Source: Sisyra terminalis
Lineage: Eukaryota > Arthropoda > Insecta > Neuroptera > Sisyridae
Assembly: GCA_958496175.1 (NCBI GenBank)
Contig: OY292276.1
Coordinates: 17,936,001 to 18,000,000, forward strand
Direction: 5' to 3'
Length of the DNA stretch: 64,000 nt
Positions 1,136 through 54,858 of the stretch are shown here, piece after piece. Under the pieces are notes generated by a model. It worked only from the letters and a program-made list of their open reading frames with translations. It was not told where the DNA came from and did no database searches. The translations under genes and the position numbers were made by a program. Numbering within the stretch: position 1 is the first letter of the stretch; every line of letters begins with the position of its first letter.

Positions 1136-4100
1136 GTATAAAGTATACTTAAAAATGTTTATGTAATTTTTTTGTGTAAAATATTATGTATTATAAAAAT
1201 CACAAGATCCAATAAAATTAAGTTCAAATTTTAATCCAAATCTATTAGATAGAAATAAATCAAAAAATTTTAAAACTAAAACAGAATTCCTTAGAAATAT
1301 TATAAGATGAAACATTTAATTAAAATTCGAGCATATTTTCTTTTATTTATCAATGTGTACATATCAACAGCGAGGAAAGATTCAATGTCTGCGTTCAATA
1401 GAAAAAGTGGCCTCAAGGAGATAATTATTAAATTTTCTTCGCTAAAATAAAAAGAACTTAAAACATATTAACTTCTTTCAATCATTAAAAACTAATTATT
1501 TAAAAAATACTAACGCACAAAAAATTGCTCTGTAAAAAATCGTTAACAATTTCTCTTTAAATTTTTTTACTCTCCTTTGTTCTCACAACATTAACAATGT
1601 TACGGTACAAAGTAGTAACCAAAGTAACTGTACAATTTAGAACGCGAAAATTTTCATTTTTTAAAAACTTTTAGATGGAGATCGTTAATATGTAGGTAGG
1701 TAATGCTAGAAATAAGTAATGTTCGGATAACTGGACCACTTGCCAATTACGTATAACGAAAATTGGACAATTTACATTTCTTTTGCATATATTTCTTGCT
1801 TTAATAATGATTGTTACCTATAAGTATAGCTTTCCACACTGAATTTAATTCAATTATGACAATTTTAAATTGTAGTGGTACAAATTATAACTAAAGTAAA
1901 TAAATAGGATATTACTTAACAGAAAAAAAGGTATAATTTTATTTACATTATATTATTACGCCTATTTACAAATTATTTGAACCATAAATAATTTTCAAGG
2001 TTAATATAGGAAAATGAGTTAGTAATGTTTCATAGGGGCATGTAAGTACGTTAACATATAGCATATATTAATATACTAAATATAAAAAAAAATGTTGTAC
2101 TATGCAAATTATTTACTTTGATAATTAAAATCTCCACTAAAACGCACGAGAATAAAATTAAGAAAATAATGAATCGCTTATGTATCAAATATAATTACAG
2201 TCAAGATAAACCTGAACTGATAATTATAATGATTAAAAATGTGAAGAATCAAAAAGGTGGGATGCTTTTCAAGCGCGTAACTTGATTTTATATCACAAAA
2301 AAAATCGAAAATAACGTTGCAATGGCTTTACAACCTTATATGCAACATATAATTGTTGGCAGAAGAATTACAACAAATTATCTTAGCCGCCCGTGCCACC
2401 AACAACTCATAATAATTATCATTAGGAATAAATAATGTAATTTTTAGCATGTGTAAATTTTATGAGATTAAATAAAACAAATGTGTGCAAAATTAAATGA
2501 TTAATCTGCATTTACTTCACAGCATAATTATTGTAATTAATTTTTAGATCAAAATCATAAAGTATGTTGTTAATTATGTACGTATTAAGTAAATAAAATG
2601 TGTTAAAAGAATCAAAAAATAAGACAAATGTAGTCTTGCTACCGACAGTGTTGTGTAAAACTTTTATGAGTAAAAAATATATAAAAGAATTTTTGTGCCC
2701 ATCATATTTTCTCAATGGTTTCTACGGTTTTATTATTCGCGGGGTCTCTCATAACTAATGCTATTTGTAATTCTACATAGGACTGCTAATGAAAATTAGT
2801 TAAAGTGGATTTCAACTATTGGTCATTGTACTAAAAGATTAGATTTTTTCGTTTGAGCCTTTATTTCCCAACCAGTAAAAATGTTATGAACCTCTTTAAA
2901 CAATATGCTTTTCACCCCTTAAACCAGTGGTTAATCAAAAGTAAGACAAGCTCGTGTACGAAGCTTTTCTATAATGAATTACAAGTGACCTGGTGTAAAT
3001 AAATTAGAGTAAAACGAATTTACTGTTAAGAAATTTAACGACTTTAGAATTTATCTTCAAAATTCAGACAAATTCGGTTTTTGAACTTCAGAAAAGTTAA
3101 CATTGGACTCGCATACCAACAATACCGTTAGTGACACACAATTGAACTAAAAAGTTTAGCAAAATCCTTATTTCTAAAGATTTCTCTTTTGAGATTTACT
3201 ATGTAGCATTCTGAAAGAATTATTTGCCACAGTACCCGTCAATTTTGTTTCTAAGATGAATCTCTATAGACATTAAATTGAATTCTTGTAAATATTTTAT
3301 ATAGTTTATGTCCCATTGGATCAAATAATACCAGAGAATTGAAACAAATCTAAACTAGAGATGAAGTTTATATAGAGAAACAAGACAAAGATAAACATTC
3401 CATATTTGTGTTGTTTGAGTTACATTTCACTTAAATTTTTCCGACATACCCTTCTTATAATGGACCGTCGATAAATTACGTAGACAATTTTTGCCTTCTT
3501 TAGATCCCTTTCTTGCTTTATAAGGCAAAATAATATCGTTTTTGTGTATTACAAATAGGAGAAGTAAGATAGTAAGACTTTTATGATCTTTTTCCAAATT
3601 GCTTTACGGAATTTATAATAGACTCCATTTTTTTTATTTCACCGATTTCAAAATCCGAATTGTACTTCGTCTTTTATTTGCAGTGTTCTGTTTTGTCCGA
3701 TCATGATTTATTTCAACAGTGTGTAGTTATTTTCTCATAATATGGCAGTGTCCTGTTTAAAGATTTCCAAACGTCCTAGTTTTCTTCTCTCCCGGGTTAG
3801 GAAACTTATTGGTACATTTCCCTTCTTGGAAACTATTTGGTATATTTTAAGCGTTCTTTCATCCTAATAATCCCGTAAATTTTATTCTGAATATTTACCC
3901 CATAATTTTCTTTATTTGTTTAAAGTTTACATACCTAACAGTACTGTCTACTTAAATACATATCTATTTTTATTCTTTTTTTATAAATACTCATATTTTA
4001 GCACCTATATGTAAAAACAATTTGCACTGCAAAAGTTTTGCTCTTTTTGTAAACATATTCGAAAACAACGAAAAAATTCAACGAATTGTTTAAATTGATT

Positions 4101-5699: not shown

Positions 5700-5918
5700 T
5701 AGTAATTATAGATTGATAAAATATTCAGAGGACTAGGACTAGTTTTAACTTTGTTAAAACGATTTTTTACGAACGCCTGAGGAAGGTTCAATAAAGGAGC
5801 CGAAACGTCGCATGTAATAAATAAAGTTTTGACCGATTATTTTTGATCCTAGTCCTCTTAATATTTTATCAATCTATTATCATCGAGGATTTGAAATTTT
5901 ACAATAAATAGTAATTAT
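5700..5918 (+). mobile_element. Insertion with hammerhead-like core, copy 1
   Basis: Direct repeat TAGTAATTAT at 5700-5709 and 5909-5918. Inverted arms 5705-5740 and 5845-5880 match at about 33 of 36 positions. Between them lies a hammerhead-like core: CTGAGGA (5777-5783), a five-pair stem II GGTTC/GAGCC (5785-5789 with 5797-5801), GAAA (5802-5805) and GTC (5807-5809). One extra A sits between the CTGANGA box and stem II. No coding sequence. Confidence 0.65.
5775..5811 (+). ncRNA. Hammerhead-ribozyme-like motif, copy 1
   Basis: Core boxes CTGAGGA and GAAA flank a five-base-pair stem II; GTC, a normal hammerhead cleavage triplet, follows directly with ACGT as a minimal stem III, as known for the hammerheads of Penelope-like elements. 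Stem I begins GC/GC and is then imperfect. Activity is untested. Confidence 0.5.
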
Positions 5919-27544: not shown

Positions 27545-28172
27545 TTTTTGCATTTTTTGAGTTAAATTAAATATGGACAATAATATAAGACGGCATAAGG
27601 AACAAACTTTATTCCACTGCATTGCCAAAACCTAAATAATAATCTTGCGATAATACAATAATAATTATAATCACAAAATAAAAATTTTGAAAAAAAAAAT
27701 TAAGACATATAAAATTACAAAAAATAACATAGTCAACTTTAAGTTTTATGCATTTTTTGATTTAAATTAAATATGGATAGTACATAATACAATATACGAG
27801 TGTAAAAGGAAAGAGTTTTATTTCACTGGATTGCCATAACTTAAATTATAATATTGTAATAATACTATAATACTTATAATCACAAAATAAGGATTCTGAA
27901 AAAAATATTGTTTTAAATTTTATAACATTACATAATTTTATCTCAAGAATCATAAACAACGAGTAAGTATACGATACTTATTTGTATCGATTTCAAACAA
28001 TATTTTTTTCAGAATCCTTATTTTGTAATTATAAGTATTACAGTATTATTGCAAGATTATAACTTAAGTTATGGCAATCTAGTGAAGTAAAGCTCTTTCC
28101 TTTTACACTCGTATGTTATAATTGATACGATTCATATTTAATTTATGTACATACAGCAAATAAAACTTAATA
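27545..28172. repeat. Three-copy composite repeat, two direct and one inverted
   Basis: A unit of about 160 bases (start TTAAATTAAATATGGA, middle TTTCACTGGATTGCC, end AATCACAAAATAA) occurs at about 27554-27690 (+), 27762-27912 (+) and, inverted, at about 27995-28150. The second and third copies form a foldback with about 80 bases of loop. Confidence 0.65.
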
Positions 28173-31935: not shown

Positions 31936-32143
31936 ATTCCAAACTATTAAATCAAAGAAGAAAACTCCAGTTGTTAAAGATTCATTAGATTTTTTATTTT
32001 CTAAATTGAATGAAGTTGCGATAGGCAACGAAACGTCGTCAATTTGGAAAACAAAACATCTAAGGGATCTTAAACAACCTGAGTTTTCTTCTTTAATTTT
32101 ATTAAGAGCTGAGATCTGAGTTTTATCATCAATTCCAAATTAT
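31936..32143 (+). mobile_element. Insertion with hammerhead-like core, copy 3 (decayed)
   Basis: Direct repeat ATTCCAAACTAT (31936-31947) and ATTCCAAATTAT (32132-32143). Inverted arms about 31946-31990 and 32059-32103 share AAAGAAGAAAACTC and neighbouring bases. Between them is a hammerhead-shaped fold: seven-pair stem I AAATTGA/TCAATTT (32003-32009, 32039-32045), five-pair stem II GTTGC/GCAAC (32015-32019, 32025-32029), then GAAA and GTC. The CTGATGA box is mutated (TTGAATGA). A 62-codon frame crosses it but is explained by this structure. Confidence 0.6.
32003..32045 (+). ncRNA. Hammerhead-ribozyme-like motif, copy 3, core mutated
   Basis: Stems I and II pair perfectly and GAAACGTC is intact, but the first core box departs from CTGANGA, so cleavage is not expected. 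It is listed as a relic. Confidence 0.4.
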
Positions 32144-33202
32144 AGTTAAACACATTCAAGTATACTTATATTGTAGTATAACTAAGTTGTAAATTAAGCC
32201 ATTATAAAGATTCTAAAATATTGTCAACTGCAGTTTGGAATACCAAGACGATTTTTGTGAATAGAAGCTATTTAAAGTAATCATCTGAAAAAAGTAAAAT
32301 ACTATGTAAAACACCAAAACTTTATGTTATGTAAAAGTAGTATTTGCTTTACTTATGCTTCTAGTGCTTTATTGTTCAATTATTCTATATACGATGAGTG
32401 TTTTACAAACTGTTAATCCCCAGATATGAAAATTTCCACATTACCAATTACTATATTTTTTATTAAAAAAAAAACTAACTTTGAAACGACTTTGATTTTT
32501 AGCATTTTTTTAACTGAGTTCACAAAAAGTTAAACTTATTCAGTTAACGTTCCCCTTCGATTAGTAACAGTAATAGATGTCTGTATCTAGTAAGACGTTA
32601 TTATCGCGGGGGATAAGTTCCAATAAGCGCTATACGAAACAGCGTTATATGAGGTAACTTAGCACGTACATTTATCCATATGTGACGGGGATCAGTGATA
32701 AGAAACAGAGAATAAGACAATTTATCAGTGCTTTTTTGTTTTATATATTTTGTAGCATTTTTTATTAAATACTTTTTATCACATTGAGTACAGACTTCTT
32801 CATGGATAATATCGAATTTTATTTATAAAACATTTATGAAGATAAAAATAGTTCGAAAAAGGATCTTATGTTTGTGACGAAGAAGGTTTTTCTTCATTTG
32901 ATATTCTTTGTTGTTCTTTTTTTTAAGACGAAATCATCTAAAGTCTTCTGTCTTTTCATTGTAAAAAAGAATCTAATAAATACCATAGCTTTATTGTAGA
33001 ATGCAGAACTGTAATTTGGGTAATATTTTGGGATCTTACAGAAGAAAAACAAAACTGAATATGTCCTACTTAAGTACTTTAAAATTAATTTGCTTTAGAT
33101 ACTATGTACCTACCACCTATATAGTTCTACTATACTTCTGTGTTTTCCAAAATATGGTTTTTTAAAATGTATTTTTGGCGCACACATTATGCGAACTAAA
33201 AC

Positions 33203-33501
33203 TTGATTACTAGTATTATTTAATTTTTAGCAGGAAAGTGGACTTAAAGAATGTAAAATTTATAAATTTTAATGTATGTGTGTGATATAATAAAAAAATT
33301 ATAGTACATGTTGCTGTATTTGAGATGTATATTGTATACTTTATATTAAGAAGCCTGATGAAGGTCAAATAAAGAACCGAAACGTCGCTAAATTAATTAT
33401 TAGTATATGGATTTACATCCTTTAAGTCCACTTTCCTGCTAAAAATTAAATACTATTATGTAAATTATGGACCCAACAAATTTATCGATTTGATTACTAG
33501 T
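33203..33501 (+). mobile_element. Insertion with hammerhead-like core, copy 2
   Basis: Direct repeat TTGATTACTAGT, identical at 33203-33214 and 33490-33501. Inverted arms 33217-33256 and 33413-33452 are 39 of 40 identical. The core between them has CTGATGA (33355-33361), stem II GGT/ACC, GAAA (33379-33382) and GTC (33384-33386). Arms are unrelated in sequence to those of the other two copies. No coding sequence. Confidence 0.7.
33353..33388 (+). ncRNA. Hammerhead-ribozyme-like motif, copy 2
   Basis: Canonical CTGATGA and GAAA boxes flank a short stem II with an A-rich loop, followed by C-GTC-GC. As in copy 1 there is one extra A before stem II and a minimal ACGT stem III. Stem I has three pairs next to the core (AGC/GCT). 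Confidence 0.5.
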
Positions 33502-38494: not shown

Positions 38495-41400
38495 TCATCT
38501 ACTACGTGAACTTCTTGACAAAATACCAGTGAAAGAACTCAAAAAACGAGGGCTACTGAGTCGAATTAGTGAAGGATCACTATGACTATCTGATTTACGC
38601 TCATCTAAATTATTGTTGGCTAATGCGAGTCGTGTTGGAGAAATTGATTGTTGTTTTAACACCTGGTCTGGTTTATAGGACAAATTATGGGTACTATAAG
38701 CTAAACAATTCGGGATTTTCAGCATTCGTTTAGTGCTGACATCCTTTGATTTTGATTTTCCATCCATTCGTCTTTTCCTTTTCGATATAGATCGTTCGGG
38801 TTTTAAGTAATTACCATTTTGTGACCAATGATTTTTCGATTTACGTCTGTATTTGTTTTCTTCACATTTATAACATCGGCAGGAAATTCCTCCGGTACAT
38901 ACAGATCTGGGATAAACTGTCTTAGCAGCTGAATAATCTTTCCTTTTCCTTCTAGTGTTATAATTGCGACGACTGCTTAAGCACTTATATCCAGATCCAA
39001 TTTTTCGAACAACTCCACAAGCTAAGCCATAATTCAGAGCTGTTTCTACTATTTTATATGCTTGCTTTTTATCTAATACATTATCGGATAACATATAGGT
39101 TTGGAGAGTTTTGATTGAGTTAAATACTGGATTCTCAGTATCCTTCATATTTCTTAAATCATCGTTCCATATTTTACTGTCTTGTGTGCTTAATCTATTA
39201 TTAGATTTTGACTTTAAGCCACAGAAACGTTTTAAACGATTTAGATAATTCATAATGCGTTTTTCCCATCGTTGACTTTTTACTGTTTTTACATTATTGG
39301 ATGACTCTGTAAAGTAAAAGAAATTATTCAGATTTGTAGAATACAATTAAGTAAGTACAAAGACCATAAGATTCAAAAATTAAATAAAAAATATTTGGTT
39401 ATACTATAAAATTTTCGGTAATTAACTGAAAATAAAACAGACAAATGCCTTAATTAACCGAAAAAAACCCACATTACTAACATTGCATGACTAATGTAGT
39501 ATTTTTGAAACATTGAAAATAAATGAGCTGTTTTCTTTGAAAATTTTGCATAGTATGTTCATTTTATATTCGGTGGGGATATTTAAGGATTAGGTTTTAC
39601 ATTACATTTACCAGAATATTGTAAAAATGAGTAAATTTTAGAAAAAAAAATGTTTATGGATATGAGATTTTAGCAAATCAAATTCATCATTAGTAAGATT
39701 ATACGAAAAATGGAATTTCAACAATTTCAAATAGAGCGGTTCAAATGTTCCTATAAATCAAATAAAAAAATATATGTTAGTTATAATTCTATTTATTTTC
39801 AATAAGTGTGCAATAAATGACATTTTAAAACAATGCAATACTTAAATGATGGTATTTATAATAAATGAAATCACTTTAGTCAGTTATTGAAGAGTTTCTT
39901 TAGAAATTACGTTTAATTTCTACAATAACTCTTTGATGTTCTGAAATAGTAGCTCATTCTGATTATTATACTAATAATTTTGTAATTTTACAAATATTTT
40001 TCTTCAAAACAGAAAAAGAAACAAATCAATACTAGTTCAATTTTTATTAAAAACGAAGTTATTTGAAATGCTTATTTTTAGAACATAAATATATGTAAGT
40101 GCTTGTAATTCCAATTCTTTTTTTTATTGTTATGTACCGTCGCATTATACTACCCAAGTCTTTCGCGACTCTAGGTCTAATAAAAATCCGTAAATCGAGA
40201 TACATCAAAAATTTGTTTGATATGAGATTCAAATCCAAAATCCAAAATCTATAGTTTTAGAGCGGTCACCAATAGGTTATTTTTTTTAACAAAAATGCCA
40301 GAACATAAACTTGCATAGGTAAATATTACATAAGTAATCTTCTTTATATATATTAGGGTGTCCGTTATTTCCCAAATTGATTTTTTACAGCGATCGTCCC
40401 CTGAATTTTTAGTTCAAGATATAAAAAAAATTATCCAATACAATTAAGCTCTTAATTTCTTGATTAAACCGTGCCGGAATCAAGTTACTTTTACTATTTA
40501 AATAACATGGGATTATTTGACTTTTTACTTTTAATTTTTTCACTGAGAAACAAATGAATGAAAAGATTTAAAATAACACTATTCTGACGTAAAATTTAAC
40601 GCTCTACATTTAATGTCTCTTATGAATTTTCGATTAAATCACTCCATTAAAAGTTATTCAACATTTCACTTGTGCCTAATATAAATCTTGCAATATTTTC
40701 AACTTTTTGCTCATTTTTACTTTTTTAACTATAAAATCATTGGAAGAGAAGATAAAAATTATTATCATTAGAGCGTCAGTGATTATTAGTGTAAATGTTA
40801 TGGCTTGAACTGAAAATTAAACAAAAAAAATCATTTTTTGACAATTAAAACAGATGACATAAGATCCGAAATCGCTATTTCTTAAATATTTAAATATTTT
40901 ATATTTATTTAATATAAGTTCTCAAAAAATTATTTTTTTGTTTAATTTTCAGTTCAAGTCATAAAATTTACACAAATAATCACTAGCGCTCTAATGATAA
41001 TAATTATCATCTTCTCTTCCAATGATTTTATAGTTAAAAAAAGTAAAAATGAGCAAAAAGTTGAAAATGTTGCAAGATATATATTAGGTACAAGTTAAAT
41101 GTTGAATAACTTTTAATGGAGTGATTTAATCGAAAATTCATAAGAGACATTAAATGTAGAGCGTTAAATTTTACGTCAGAATAGTGTTATTTTAAATCTT
41201 TTCATTCATTTGTTTCTCAGAAAAAAAATTAAAAGTAAAAAGTCAAATAATCCCATGTTATTTAAATGGTAAAAGTAACTTGATTCCGGCACGGTTTAAT
41301 CAAGAAATTAAGAGCTTAATTGTATTGGATAATTTTTTTTTTATCTTAAACTAAAAATTCAGGGGGCAATCGCTGTAAAAAAATCAATTTGGGAAATAAC

Positions 41401-42328
41401 GGACACCCTAATATATATAAACAAAGTAATGTTAGTTAGACTATTTATAATAGAAGAATGACTGAATCGATTTTCATGATCTATGATTTGTTGGATTCGT
41501 CTACTCCTAGGCTAACAGAATAGCTACTAAAATATCTATCTAGTATGAATAAATTGAATTTTTAAATAAATTAGGTTTGCCATATTTCTCAATTATTTTC
41601 TCACATCACGCATACTTATACATTATTTGTAATTATTGATGGCTGTAATTTGCAAAAAACGCATAGCGACCATTTGAATTTAACATTGATAAATATTTTA
41701 TTTATTTCCGAGTCACAATTAATGAATAATAATATATGTCTTATGACTCAATTTCTTCTTTATTTTTCTTTAAAGTATTAATACATAGTTATATATTTTA
41801 GGGGTGAGATTATTGCGTATATTGGACATTATGTATAGATACACTAGGAAAAAGAATCTTTAAAAGAAATGGAAGTGAAGGAAAGTGTATACACTTTGAA
41901 TTGGAACAAAGTTAGAAATTTTGATATACTTACATTTATTTTCTTAAAAAAGTTTATACACTAAAGAAAAAACAATTATTGTATAAATTTTCGATACTGA
42001 AGCAAAATATGGAAGAATTTCAATCAATATATTCATTTTACTAACATAATTTTAAAAGAATTTCGCCCGATTTTTAAACCCGAGTAGCTGAACAATTTTA
42101 TATATTTTCATATTTAGATTTGTTTTACAATTATTTCAAAAATCTACCTGAATCATTACAAGAAGAAGTATAGTCGCTCTCACTATCAGCTTTATAAGAT
42201 ATTGCAATAGGCTTTGGCGCAAATTTGACTTTGGATTTTCTTCTCCGTCTTACTACACTTTTCCTCTTAAGTGGTCTTAAGGCTTTACGTGGTTTTGGAG
42301 TTGGATATTTAATTTTCGACATAGTCAA
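38495..42328 (-). CDS. Basic linker-histone-like protein A, two exons
   Basis: Exon 1 (42328-42148) and exon 2 (39306-38495) join in phase, GT donor to ttacag acceptor, into a 330-residue very basic protein. Exon 1 is an Arg/Lys-rich tail (RPLKRKSVVRRRRKSKVK). Around residues 119-171 a module reads KKQAYKIVETALNYGLACG then VVRKIGSGYKCLS, resembling the second half of the linker-histone H15 winged helix (helix 3 and the beta wing). A Cys cluster (CTGGISCRCYKC, about residue 192) and an Arg/Ser-rich C-terminus (ending LSRSSRSR) follow. The same module occurs in the gene at 46291-47667, so these are paralogues. The 2.84-kb intron contains a SINE and a 1.08-kb palindrome. Its start lies 308 bases from a divergent gene of the same kind. 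A role in chromatin, possibly sperm, is inference; I do not recognise a named orthologue. Confidence 0.75.
40117..40277 (-). mobile_element. tRNA-derived SINE, copy 2
   Basis: The reverse complement repeats the body of the copy at 6290-6440 (CTCGATTTACGGATTTTTAT, CCTAGAGTCGCGAAAG) and the same AACAATAAAAAA tail; the B box is decayed to GATTTGAATCTC. It lies in the intron of the linker-histone-like gene at 38495-42328, in the same orientation as that gene. Confidence 0.65.
40343..41421. mobile_element. Long palindromic foldback element
   Basis: Arms of about 500 bp (40343-40841 and 40921-41421) are near-identical inverted copies around a loop of about 79 bases. The outer ends read TATTAGGGTGTCCGTTATTT on each side within TA-rich flanks, so a TA target duplication is possible. 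No transposase frame is present. It sits in the intron of the linker-histone-like gene at 38495-42328. Confidence 0.8.
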
Positions 42329-52900: not shown

Positions 52901-54858
52901 GTTCTTGTAAATTCCAAATACAAATAATTGGACGTAATGCAATTCCCTCTTCATCTGCTATAAAATTTATGTTCCGTTTTTCATGAACAGTCAAAATCTG
53001 AGTTTTTGATTTTTCTGAGTATTCGATACATTTCACAGATCGCATTGTCAAGAACGATATTTCATTAATTCCTAATATCGTGTATTCAGCAGAAAACGGC
53101 CAATCTCTCTCTTCAGGCTTTATCCAACTGATGTTTTTGATACTTTTTTCTTTTAAAATTTGCTTTATAATCTTTTCTTTTTTTTGTAAAAATATTTCTA
53201 ATCGATTACTATTATATTTACTTAAATTTCGCCATTCATTTACGTAGTTAATGCTACTTTCTTCATCGTCCCCAACGCCTAAGCTAGTTTTAGTTAGTCG
53301 TACTAAGTCTTCATTGTTGTGAAAATTTGTAATTAAATCAACTGGAAATTGAGTCCATTTATTTTTTGTGTCAATTTCTTCAGTTTGAACTTCTTCGTCT
53401 AAATTATCATCGTTTGTTTGACAATAGTTTTGAACGGTACCTCCTCTACCATAACTCAACATAAAAATTTCATAAGGCACTGGGAAAAGCTCCAACAAAG
53501 GCACGTACATCGAATCTAAAGTAATCATACTCAGTATTTCTTGACCCCTTTTTTTGGTTTGTTCCAAAGTTTTTTGCTTCTGCTCTTTTTTACGAGCTGC
53601 TGCAAAATTAATAAACATCGACGATTTCGATTCTTCTTCAAATCCCTCATCAGAAAACATTCCGTCCTGATTTGCAATTAATTTTTGTTCTAAATTTGAA
53701 TTTTCTCGTTCAATCGCTTCCTTGATTCCATGCAAAACAGAAGGAATTCGTTTTGGGTCACGTAAATCATAATTACCGGAATCGAGTTTCCGTTCCTCCT
53801 CAGTGCCACCTGATGAAACACGTTTTTGTGTAGCAAATGATTCTTGAGATTCGTCGGCAGTTTTGCTATTTTCACAAGAGGATTTCGATGATGAAGTGGT
53901 TGGTTCTGATGTATCTGAAGATGAACATTGTTCAAAATCGGATTCATACGAATCGAAATCATCTTCATAATCGTAATTGTCGGTTACGGTTTCTGCAGAA
54001 CTAAGAGTTTTGCTTTTTTCTTTTATTACTTCTTTATAATTGTTTGAAGGTTTTTTAAATTCATGAGTTGAAATGATTGACCGTTTAGCTAAACTTGTTT
54101 CTGAAGATGAAGAGTTTACAATTGGACCTTTAACAATTTTTATTTCACTTGGACTAAGAGTTCTGCTTCTTGAACGAGGTGTTAACATTTTTTTATCTCC
54201 ATCATCCATTTTTCGTGAACGATCTTTCCGAATTAGATTGTTAGAGTTGGTTTGTTTTTCTAATAATTCACGAGCTTTCAGAGCTTTGATTTCCTTTTCC
54301 TTATCAGCATACTTTTTTGGGAAATACTTTGATGTCGTTACTCGACTACTTAAGCTATCGATTGCTTTAGATTTCATTTCCGGTTTCTTTTTAACAGTTT
54401 CTCTAGACGACGTGGGGGTAAGTGGTTGTGAAAGACGTATATTTGATTTACTACTAGATAATATATTAGACGTTGATTTCGATGCAGTGCCTTTTATTGT
54501 TGTATTTTGTCTATTTAATGCTGGTGGCCTACTTGAAAGTGGAATTTTCTGTTCTTTTATTACAGTCGCTTCTCTTTTCCGATTAATTAATCTATCGCGA
54601 CTTAGATCGCGCGTTTTAGCTAAGCCCAAACTTGGTTCTTCGTATTTACTACGAGTAGAATGGAGCACATTCTTACTATGTCCCTATTAATAAAAATAAT
54701 TAACTTAATTCAATAAAATGTCAATATTTTAATTTCGTGCAATATTTGATGAATGCTTCAATAGTTTGTTGAAAATAAAGTGCATTTAGAAAAGCGGTGA
54801 TAAATTTATGTGCTGAAAATTGTAAAAGTACCTTTGAATTTTGCATTTTATTGGACAT
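49969..54858 (-). CDS. DYNC2I1: Cytoplasmic dynein 2 intermediate chain 1 (WDR60), five exons
   Basis: This is an intermediate chain of the dynein-2 motor that drives retrograde intraflagellar transport in cilia. Exons 54858-54832, 54683-52590, 51628-51331, 50507-50164 and 50091-49969 join in frame to 961 residues (human about 1066). The N-terminal half is low-complexity and charged, with an acidic patch YDYEDDFDSYESDFE (about 245-260). Conserved landmarks follow: QKTLEQTKKRGQEIL, the VQTEEIDTKNKWTQFP motif (human QTEEIETREVWTQ), and then WD-repeat segments ICIWNLQEP, GSVCAWDLSEP, SGTIVIWSILR, FLVGCKDSSIRLHSL and LHIWDLEFSDLYP. Exon 1 encodes only nine residues (MSNKMQNSK); it is supported by an ATG, a GTACTT donor and perfect phase, but is the least certain part. 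Presence of this gene implies cilia, in insects found in sensory neurons and sperm. Confidence 0.93.

Follow-up and report, generated by a model that had tools for sequence, protein, structure and literature searches.

Paired head-to-head insertions resembling Penelope-like element ends in the genome of Sisyra terminalis

Three short insertions in the window and their repeat families

The window analysed here, a 64,000 bp stretch of contig OY292276.1 that is AT-rich throughout and has ORFs of insect-like appearance, contains three insertions (units 1 to 3) that a first-pass annotation had reported as sharing one layout of direct repeats, inverted arms and a hammerhead-like core. All three were found as genuine insertions at the coordinates given there, and such units are short, at about 200-450 bp. 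Unit 1 is bounded by target-site duplications (TSDs) at 5700-5709 (TAGTAATTAT) and 5909-5918 that match at 10/10 bp, and its inverted arms (5705-5738 and 5847-5880) correspond at 94% over 34 nt. Its minus-strand half (5710-5738) consists of the inverted arm only and has no tail, and on the plus strand lie a core of CTGAGGA, stem II and GAAACGTC (5777-5809), the arm of the tail-bearing half (5847-5875) and, on this side only, a tail of about 33 nt (5876-5908). A possible stem I, TTAC-gaac-GC / GC-at-GTAA, can be read by eye on either side of this core. Unit 2 lies between duplications at 31936-31947 and 32132-32143 (11/12 bp matching). Its arms of 64 nt (84%) form the tail-less half on the minus strand (31946-32009), which has its inner end about 2 nt from the hammerhead cleavage site, and the arm of the tail-bearing half on the plus strand (32039-32102), followed by a tail of about 29 nt (32103-32131). 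The core between them (32010-32037, plus strand) has a truncated 5′ box, with stem II (GTTGC/GCAAC) and GAAACGTC intact. Unit 3 has duplications at 33203-33214 (TTGATTACTAGT) and 33490-33501 that agree at 12/12 bp, and inverted arms at 33211-33257 and 33412-33458 (47 nt, 94%), the first of which makes up the whole of the minus-strand, tail-less half. The tail-bearing half, on the plus strand, comprises an upstream part in what is presumably the spliced form (33258-33354), with TATTAAG joined to AAGC at 33350/33351, a core of CTGATGA, stem II and GAAACGTC (33355-33386), the arm (33387-33458) and a one-sided tail of about 30 nt (33459-33489).

The exact pattern CTGANGA-N6-30-GAAAC matched the window three times against 0.35 expected; two of the matches are the cores of units 1 and 3, and the third (53786-53803, minus strand) is unrelated. 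Unit 2 departs from the reported common layout in lacking the exact box, which reads TTGAATGA and is incomplete because the junction of the two halves cuts it. The core boxes are common to four families, between which the sequence of stem II differs, and at the level of sequence the hammerhead-like core proposed by the first-pass annotation is supported. The Rfam check that it had suggested gave no score for the hammerhead models in the window or in eight fetched loci with other copies; weak matches in these scans were mostly to microRNA-like hairpins. When four cores were folded, those of units 1 and 3 formed stem II and an outer stem I, and those of loci L041 and L030 folded otherwise; all four folded no better than shuffled sequences (z -0.52 to -1.00). 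Judged by its boxes, the core would be a minimal hammerhead of type I close to the 3′ end, as expected of an insertion of a Penelope-like element (PLE), and it may act as a ribozyme.

Across 376.6 Mb of genome sequence in 11 contigs, with reversed patterns as controls, the core of unit 3 had 967 forward and 975 reverse matches at up to three mismatches (1942, against 18 + 20 = 38 for the reversed pattern), the core of unit 1 had 663 (345 + 318, against 0) and the family arm of unit 2, searched with a pattern two mismatches away from unit 2 itself, had 5910 (2940 + 2970, against 0). Within the window plus fetched loci, 335 kb in total, unit 1 was matched past its core at L003, L018 and L038, all of which contain its arm and the first two also its tail. 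Unit 2 was matched at L022, L041, L045, L047, L057 and L058, and its tail recurs identically at the first four. An alignment of 48 half-elements, including a few from other families, showed the arm and the bases past it to be common to the copies, and the arm of unit 3 occurs in most of the family-B copies sampled. Because the arms recur across copies, the units are assigned by sequence to three repeat families, A (unit 1), C (unit 2) and B (unit 3), and the claim that the arms are locus-specific falls. Among these three units only the core is indeed shared, as the first-pass annotation had observed, but each arm recurs at other fetched loci and is, to judge from these matches, the family's own sequence and not flanking DNA inverted and duplicated on insertion. 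The same annotation had named shared arms as the sign of an ordinary terminal-inverted-repeat element; arms do recur, as counted across the genome for the family of unit 2 and at fetched loci for the other two, but such an element is not what the copies show: the inner junctions vary, the tail is mostly one-sided, and apparently spliced and unspliced copies both exist.

Several other arrangements were noted. What appears to be one and the same family-B copy, lying within a copy of family C, occurs at two places 16.6 kb apart (L057 and L058), a segment that has probably been duplicated, and L049 (3355-4122) holds a short array of family-B halves in alternating inversion, unlike the dispersed insertions. 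The window also contains an inverted repeat of 450 bp (27739-28170, 78%) and a near-perfect palindrome of 1.1 kb (40340-41424, 92%). Pieces of this palindrome recur within L003 and L023 between family-B halves, which marks it as a fold-back repeat in its own right, one that family B may have carried along or inserted into.

Outer ends, tails and target-site duplications

The sample comprised 114 half-elements in 62 loci, drawn from those fetched among the first 101 or so places listed (exact cores, contigs C1 and C2), together with the window. Most sampled family-B copies face another copy, which is inverted and varies in length, and 43 head-to-head pairs were found. Five of these were dropped (L016, a different element; three of the L049 array; and the family-A pair of L018 at 2088/2151), leaving 38, of which 34 were used for flank and similarity counts and 28 for half-length counts, truncated or long-gapped pairs being left out.

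On the consensus, the outer ends of the 114 half-elements were bimodal, lying either at the end of the arm (J, at about position 103, 71 nt past the hammerhead cleavage site) or about 30 nt further out (T, about 101 nt past the site), the additional stretch being the tail. Ends were tabulated in 52 rows that included copies with one core whose partner arm could be recognised (L051 twice), and five rows with a truncated half were left untyped. Among the 47 two-sided family-B insertions typed on both sides, the tail was present on one side in 35, on neither in 10 and on both in 2, an excess of one-tail insertions that would be improbable if the sides were independent (exact test, p = 0.0003). 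The same test on earlier pair classes gave p = 0.002 for the raw counts (26, 2, 6) and p = 1.5e-5 (27, 0, 4) once L014 had been re-read and the fold-back loci omitted; L014 was T/T in the first typing, has no left tail on reading, and is typed accordingly in the second. Decayed tails at L048 and L054 counted as tail-bearing in the first typing and not in that of the 47 insertions. Two of the ten tail-less insertions, those at L057 and L058, look like a single duplicated insertion. The one-tail layout was also seen in 6/6 copies of families A and C with both ends readable (11 seen, units 1 and 2 included). For a further 12 single cores, the 47-insertion typing recognised no partner half; among them, a second half was seen at L064 in a separate reading, the two at L032 lie 2 kb apart and point towards each other, and the core of L066 at 22 sits at the edge.

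Direct repeats at the ends scored at least 8 in 26/38 pairs, compared with 12.6% when flanks were mismatched (2000 pairs). Of the 26 T/J pairs, 21 passed this score, with duplications of 8 (1), 10 (2), 12 (11), 13 (5) and 14 bp (2); 18 of the 21 were therefore 12-14 bp long, and AT stood at the tail-side start in 13. Inner junctions and half lengths differ between copies. Within pairs, half lengths were close (median difference 16 nt), a similarity that we do not use in support of a single RNA since the 28 pairs had been selected for two cores, and inner ends mirrored each other within 3 nt in only 3/28. Some second halves lack a core altogether. In 6/15 single-core insertions (L010, L027, L041, L052, L054 and L056) the short second half ends at most 7 nt from the cleavage site of the hammerhead, and the left half of unit 2 ends similarly; six of 15 are too few to say whether a cleaved RNA served as template.

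Three of the 12 typed insertions that break the one-tail rule are at loci with palindromic flanks, which were found in 3/34 pairs. At L025 and L050 there is a tail on neither side and the flanks score 58/60 and 54/60 as palindromes; the L042 pair at 2963/3013 has a tail on both sides and its palindrome begins further out. The palindromes take in flanking DNA, and the remaining 31 pairs score only 4-17. The three look like true snap-back products, and it is at these loci alone, and not for the main class, that the snap-back copying suggested by the first-pass annotation fits.

The intron-like segment and the template RNA

Two forms of family B were read by eye upstream of the hammerhead among the copies listed. 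In one, TATTAAG is followed directly by AAGCCTGATG; in the other, an insert of about 77 nt, GTAAAT...TTTTTTAG, stands at that point. The segment thus begins after TATTAAG with GTAAATGAAC and finishes with GATTTTTTAG before AAGC, and has GT..AG ends, which suggests an intron that can be removed by splicing. Its state was readable in 53 insertions, 34 without the segment and 19 with it, and the presence of copies that seemingly retain an intron agrees with what is expected of PLEs. Both halves were in the same state in all 26 informative pairs under a strict local rule (12/38 uninformative) and in 31/31 under a looser alignment rule (7 uninformative). By contrast with this agreement within pairs, the nearest relative by core-and-arm sequence was in the other state for 21/53 insertions, and 14 changes of state were needed on the tree. 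Family C halves agreed by eye in 4/4 pairs: both halves end in an intron-like TATAG at L041 and L045, and both read GAATCAAG followed by AA at L047 and L057. In overall similarity, the partner half had a median rank of 1.5 of 66 and came first in 11/34 pairs, with ranks from 22nd to 64th at L003, L012, L024, L036, L040, L043 and L053.

Copies without the segment, together with the agreement of the halves, point to a sense RNA, often spliced, as the template, the two halves sharing an RNA or a source. Such agreement could also arise if the halves came from two RNAs of a single source locus, or if gene conversion had acted on the arms. The RNA-mediated insertion with target duplication that the first-pass annotation had envisaged gains support from the copies with and without the intron-like segment and from the duplications of about 12 bp.

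Routes of insertion and comparison with known systems

The units look like one of a known kind, namely paired head-to-head end fragments of PLEs, for which inverted head-to-head pseudo-LTRs (pLTRs) with a short TSD in an AT-rich target, and a tail of 30-40 bp on one side, are expected. The Penelope link made by the first-pass annotation is borne out by the hammerhead motif, the inverted pLTR, the tail of about 30 nt and the duplications of about 12 bp. Its supposition that the architecture was undescribed is not, as the available portion of PMC3846280 presents, as typical of Penelope, an insert that combines an inverted pLTR with a tail of 31 bp and a TSD of 9 bp. The endonuclease-containing Pen elements of Adineta vaga in that source share with the units the head-to-head inverted pLTRs, an optional one-sided 31-bp tail, TSDs of 8-10 bp, retained introns and AT-rich targets; they differ in being long, mostly ORF-bearing and of very low copy number, whereas the present inserts are ORF-less, a few hundred bp long and present in hundreds to thousands of copies. 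Minimal type I hammerheads with almost no stem III are reported in thousands of dispersed animal copies, some in PLE pLTRs (Cervera & de la Pena 2014 and Lunse et al. 2017, as given in the accessible part of PMC7761336), and are described there as dispersed motifs or as tandem copies in PLEs, whereas the units here are head to head.

The closest biochemical comparison is with the Anolis PLE Poseidon PAc, whose protein, once purified, cuts both strands and extends them in vitro, with two internal reverse transcription start sites 30-40 nt apart and the stretch between them forming the tail (PMC11167929, from the sections available). As in the units, a hammerhead is followed by two start sites and cutting is AT-rich. 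In the Anolis element the hammerhead cleaves at +26 and reverse transcription starts within +111 to +118, distances that fit J and T at about 71 and 101 nt past the cut here. The Anolis work is in vitro and concerns one enzyme; the sections available do not discuss head-to-head products or one tail per insertion, and use 'inverted' once, for a blocked oligo. Start sites did not differ between strands there, so the exclusive use of T and J within each insertion is unexplained by that work.

Our preferred reading, to which we give a probability of about 60%, is that the units are 3′ end (pLTR) fragments of PLEs inserted by two-sided target-primed reverse transcription. An endonuclease would cut the target with a stagger of about 12 nt, exposing two 3′ ends that would both be extended with the sense RNA of the element as template. 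One would prime at the outer start site T and so acquire the tail, its counterpart at J, about 30 nt inward, and so lack it, usually with a single RNA molecule serving both. The two cDNAs would extend through arm and hammerhead by differing lengths before their ends were joined head to head, the stagger remaining as the target duplication. If both nicks prime on one RNA, one at each start site, a single tail and a shared splicing state are expected, the inner ends are under no mirror rule and the stagger is retained as the TSD, and this is the pattern seen in most typed insertions. The sample favours such one-RNA, two-nick priming with a sense transcript as template. That every ordinary insertion arises in this way, with opposite nicks priming one sense RNA to give exactly one T-cDNA and one J-cDNA, is a tentative proposition, somewhat easier to doubt than to accept. 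In the open-licence literature, which leaves most subscription papers outside it, we found no paper that combines two-nick priming with inverted pLTRs.

The alternative that survives best, albeit as an unlikely one, is self-priming, in which a cDNA would fold back to serve as its own template and so generate the inverted half; the available text of PMC3846280 proposes this for Penelope on an antisense template. It accounts for the head-to-head order, for halves that share their splicing state and often their sequence, for the closeness of half lengths in the 28 pairs selected for two cores and for L025, L050 and L042, with their palindromic flanks, near-palindromic centres and equal end types. 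Self-priming should, however, copy through the tail and on into the target and so produce equal ends and palindromic flanks, whereas the ends are unequal in 35/47 insertions and the flanks ordinary in 31/34 pairs. It also predicts mirrored inner ends, of which one of the three cases is itself the fold-back locus L050, and it sits poorly with second halves that have no core. An antisense template would not give 34/53 copies without a sense intron, and the intron-less copies indicate a sense RNA, contrary to the scheme of PMC3846280. As the source of the main class, self-priming is disfavoured.

Slightly less probable again is two-sided priming on two separate RNA molecules. Halves do differ clearly in some pairs (L040, L053, L043 and others), but the identical splicing state in 26/26 pairs and the high similarity rank of the partner half count against separate molecules, and independent molecules would permit more T/T and J/J insertions than were found. 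An ordinary DNA transposon (MITE) with terminal inverted repeats would suit the small size, inverted ends and many copies, yet is very improbable: in place of identical ends and a fixed TSD length, the insertions have an extension of about 30 nt usually at one end, variable inner junctions and half lengths, duplications that vary around 12 bp, and copies with and without the intron-like segment. We give hardly any credence to retrozymes, that is, short circular RNAs from hammerheads in tandem repeats. Metazoan retrozymes are, like the units, small non-coding repeats with type I hammerheads, and one array occurs here, at L049, but theirs are canonical hammerheads in tandem with no inverted halves or tail described in the parts available of PMC7229834, the main text of which uses 'inverted' 0 times; tandem hammerheads bounding a monomer were not found here, the 43 pairs being head to head and L049 consisting of alternating inverted halves. 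Inversion of flanking DNA to form the arms is equally hard to credit and, despite the palindromic flanks at three loci, is refuted for the three window units, whose arms are common to other copies.

A full-length autonomous partner of families A, B and C was not found, and none of the units has pLTRs in tandem around an ORF for a telomerase-like reverse transcriptase and a GIY-YIG endonuclease. A search of the genome with the GIY-YIG profile PF01541 returned one locus other than L030, and this locus looks by its motifs like host SLX1. At L030, an ORF (2174-2998, minus strand) is, as we read its motifs, GIY-YIG-like; it matched 0 Pfam families and had no homologue at E <= 0.001, its one weak PDB match (E 0.051) was unrelated by name, and its single-sequence fold (mean pLDDT 36) was useless. 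This ORF was rejected as the family-B partner, as BLAST places it in another family that ends about 85 nt before the family-B copy. That other PLE-like family (L030, 2024-3377), in which a hammerhead-like motif lies directly past the stop codon of the endonuclease-like ORF, is also arranged head to head, with halves very unequal in length.

Should the two-sided reading hold, one event would explain the inverted pLTRs and the optional tail of Penelope elements together, and the antisense self-priming hypothesis would be replaced, fold-back being only a minor by-path. Hundreds to thousands of short, readable insertions make the mechanism a counting problem, in which the side of the tail, the sharing of splicing state by the halves and the mirroring of inner ends are the counts that separate the explanations. 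The anatomy of these units would then be a record of how PLEs may place copies of themselves on the two sides of a target cut.
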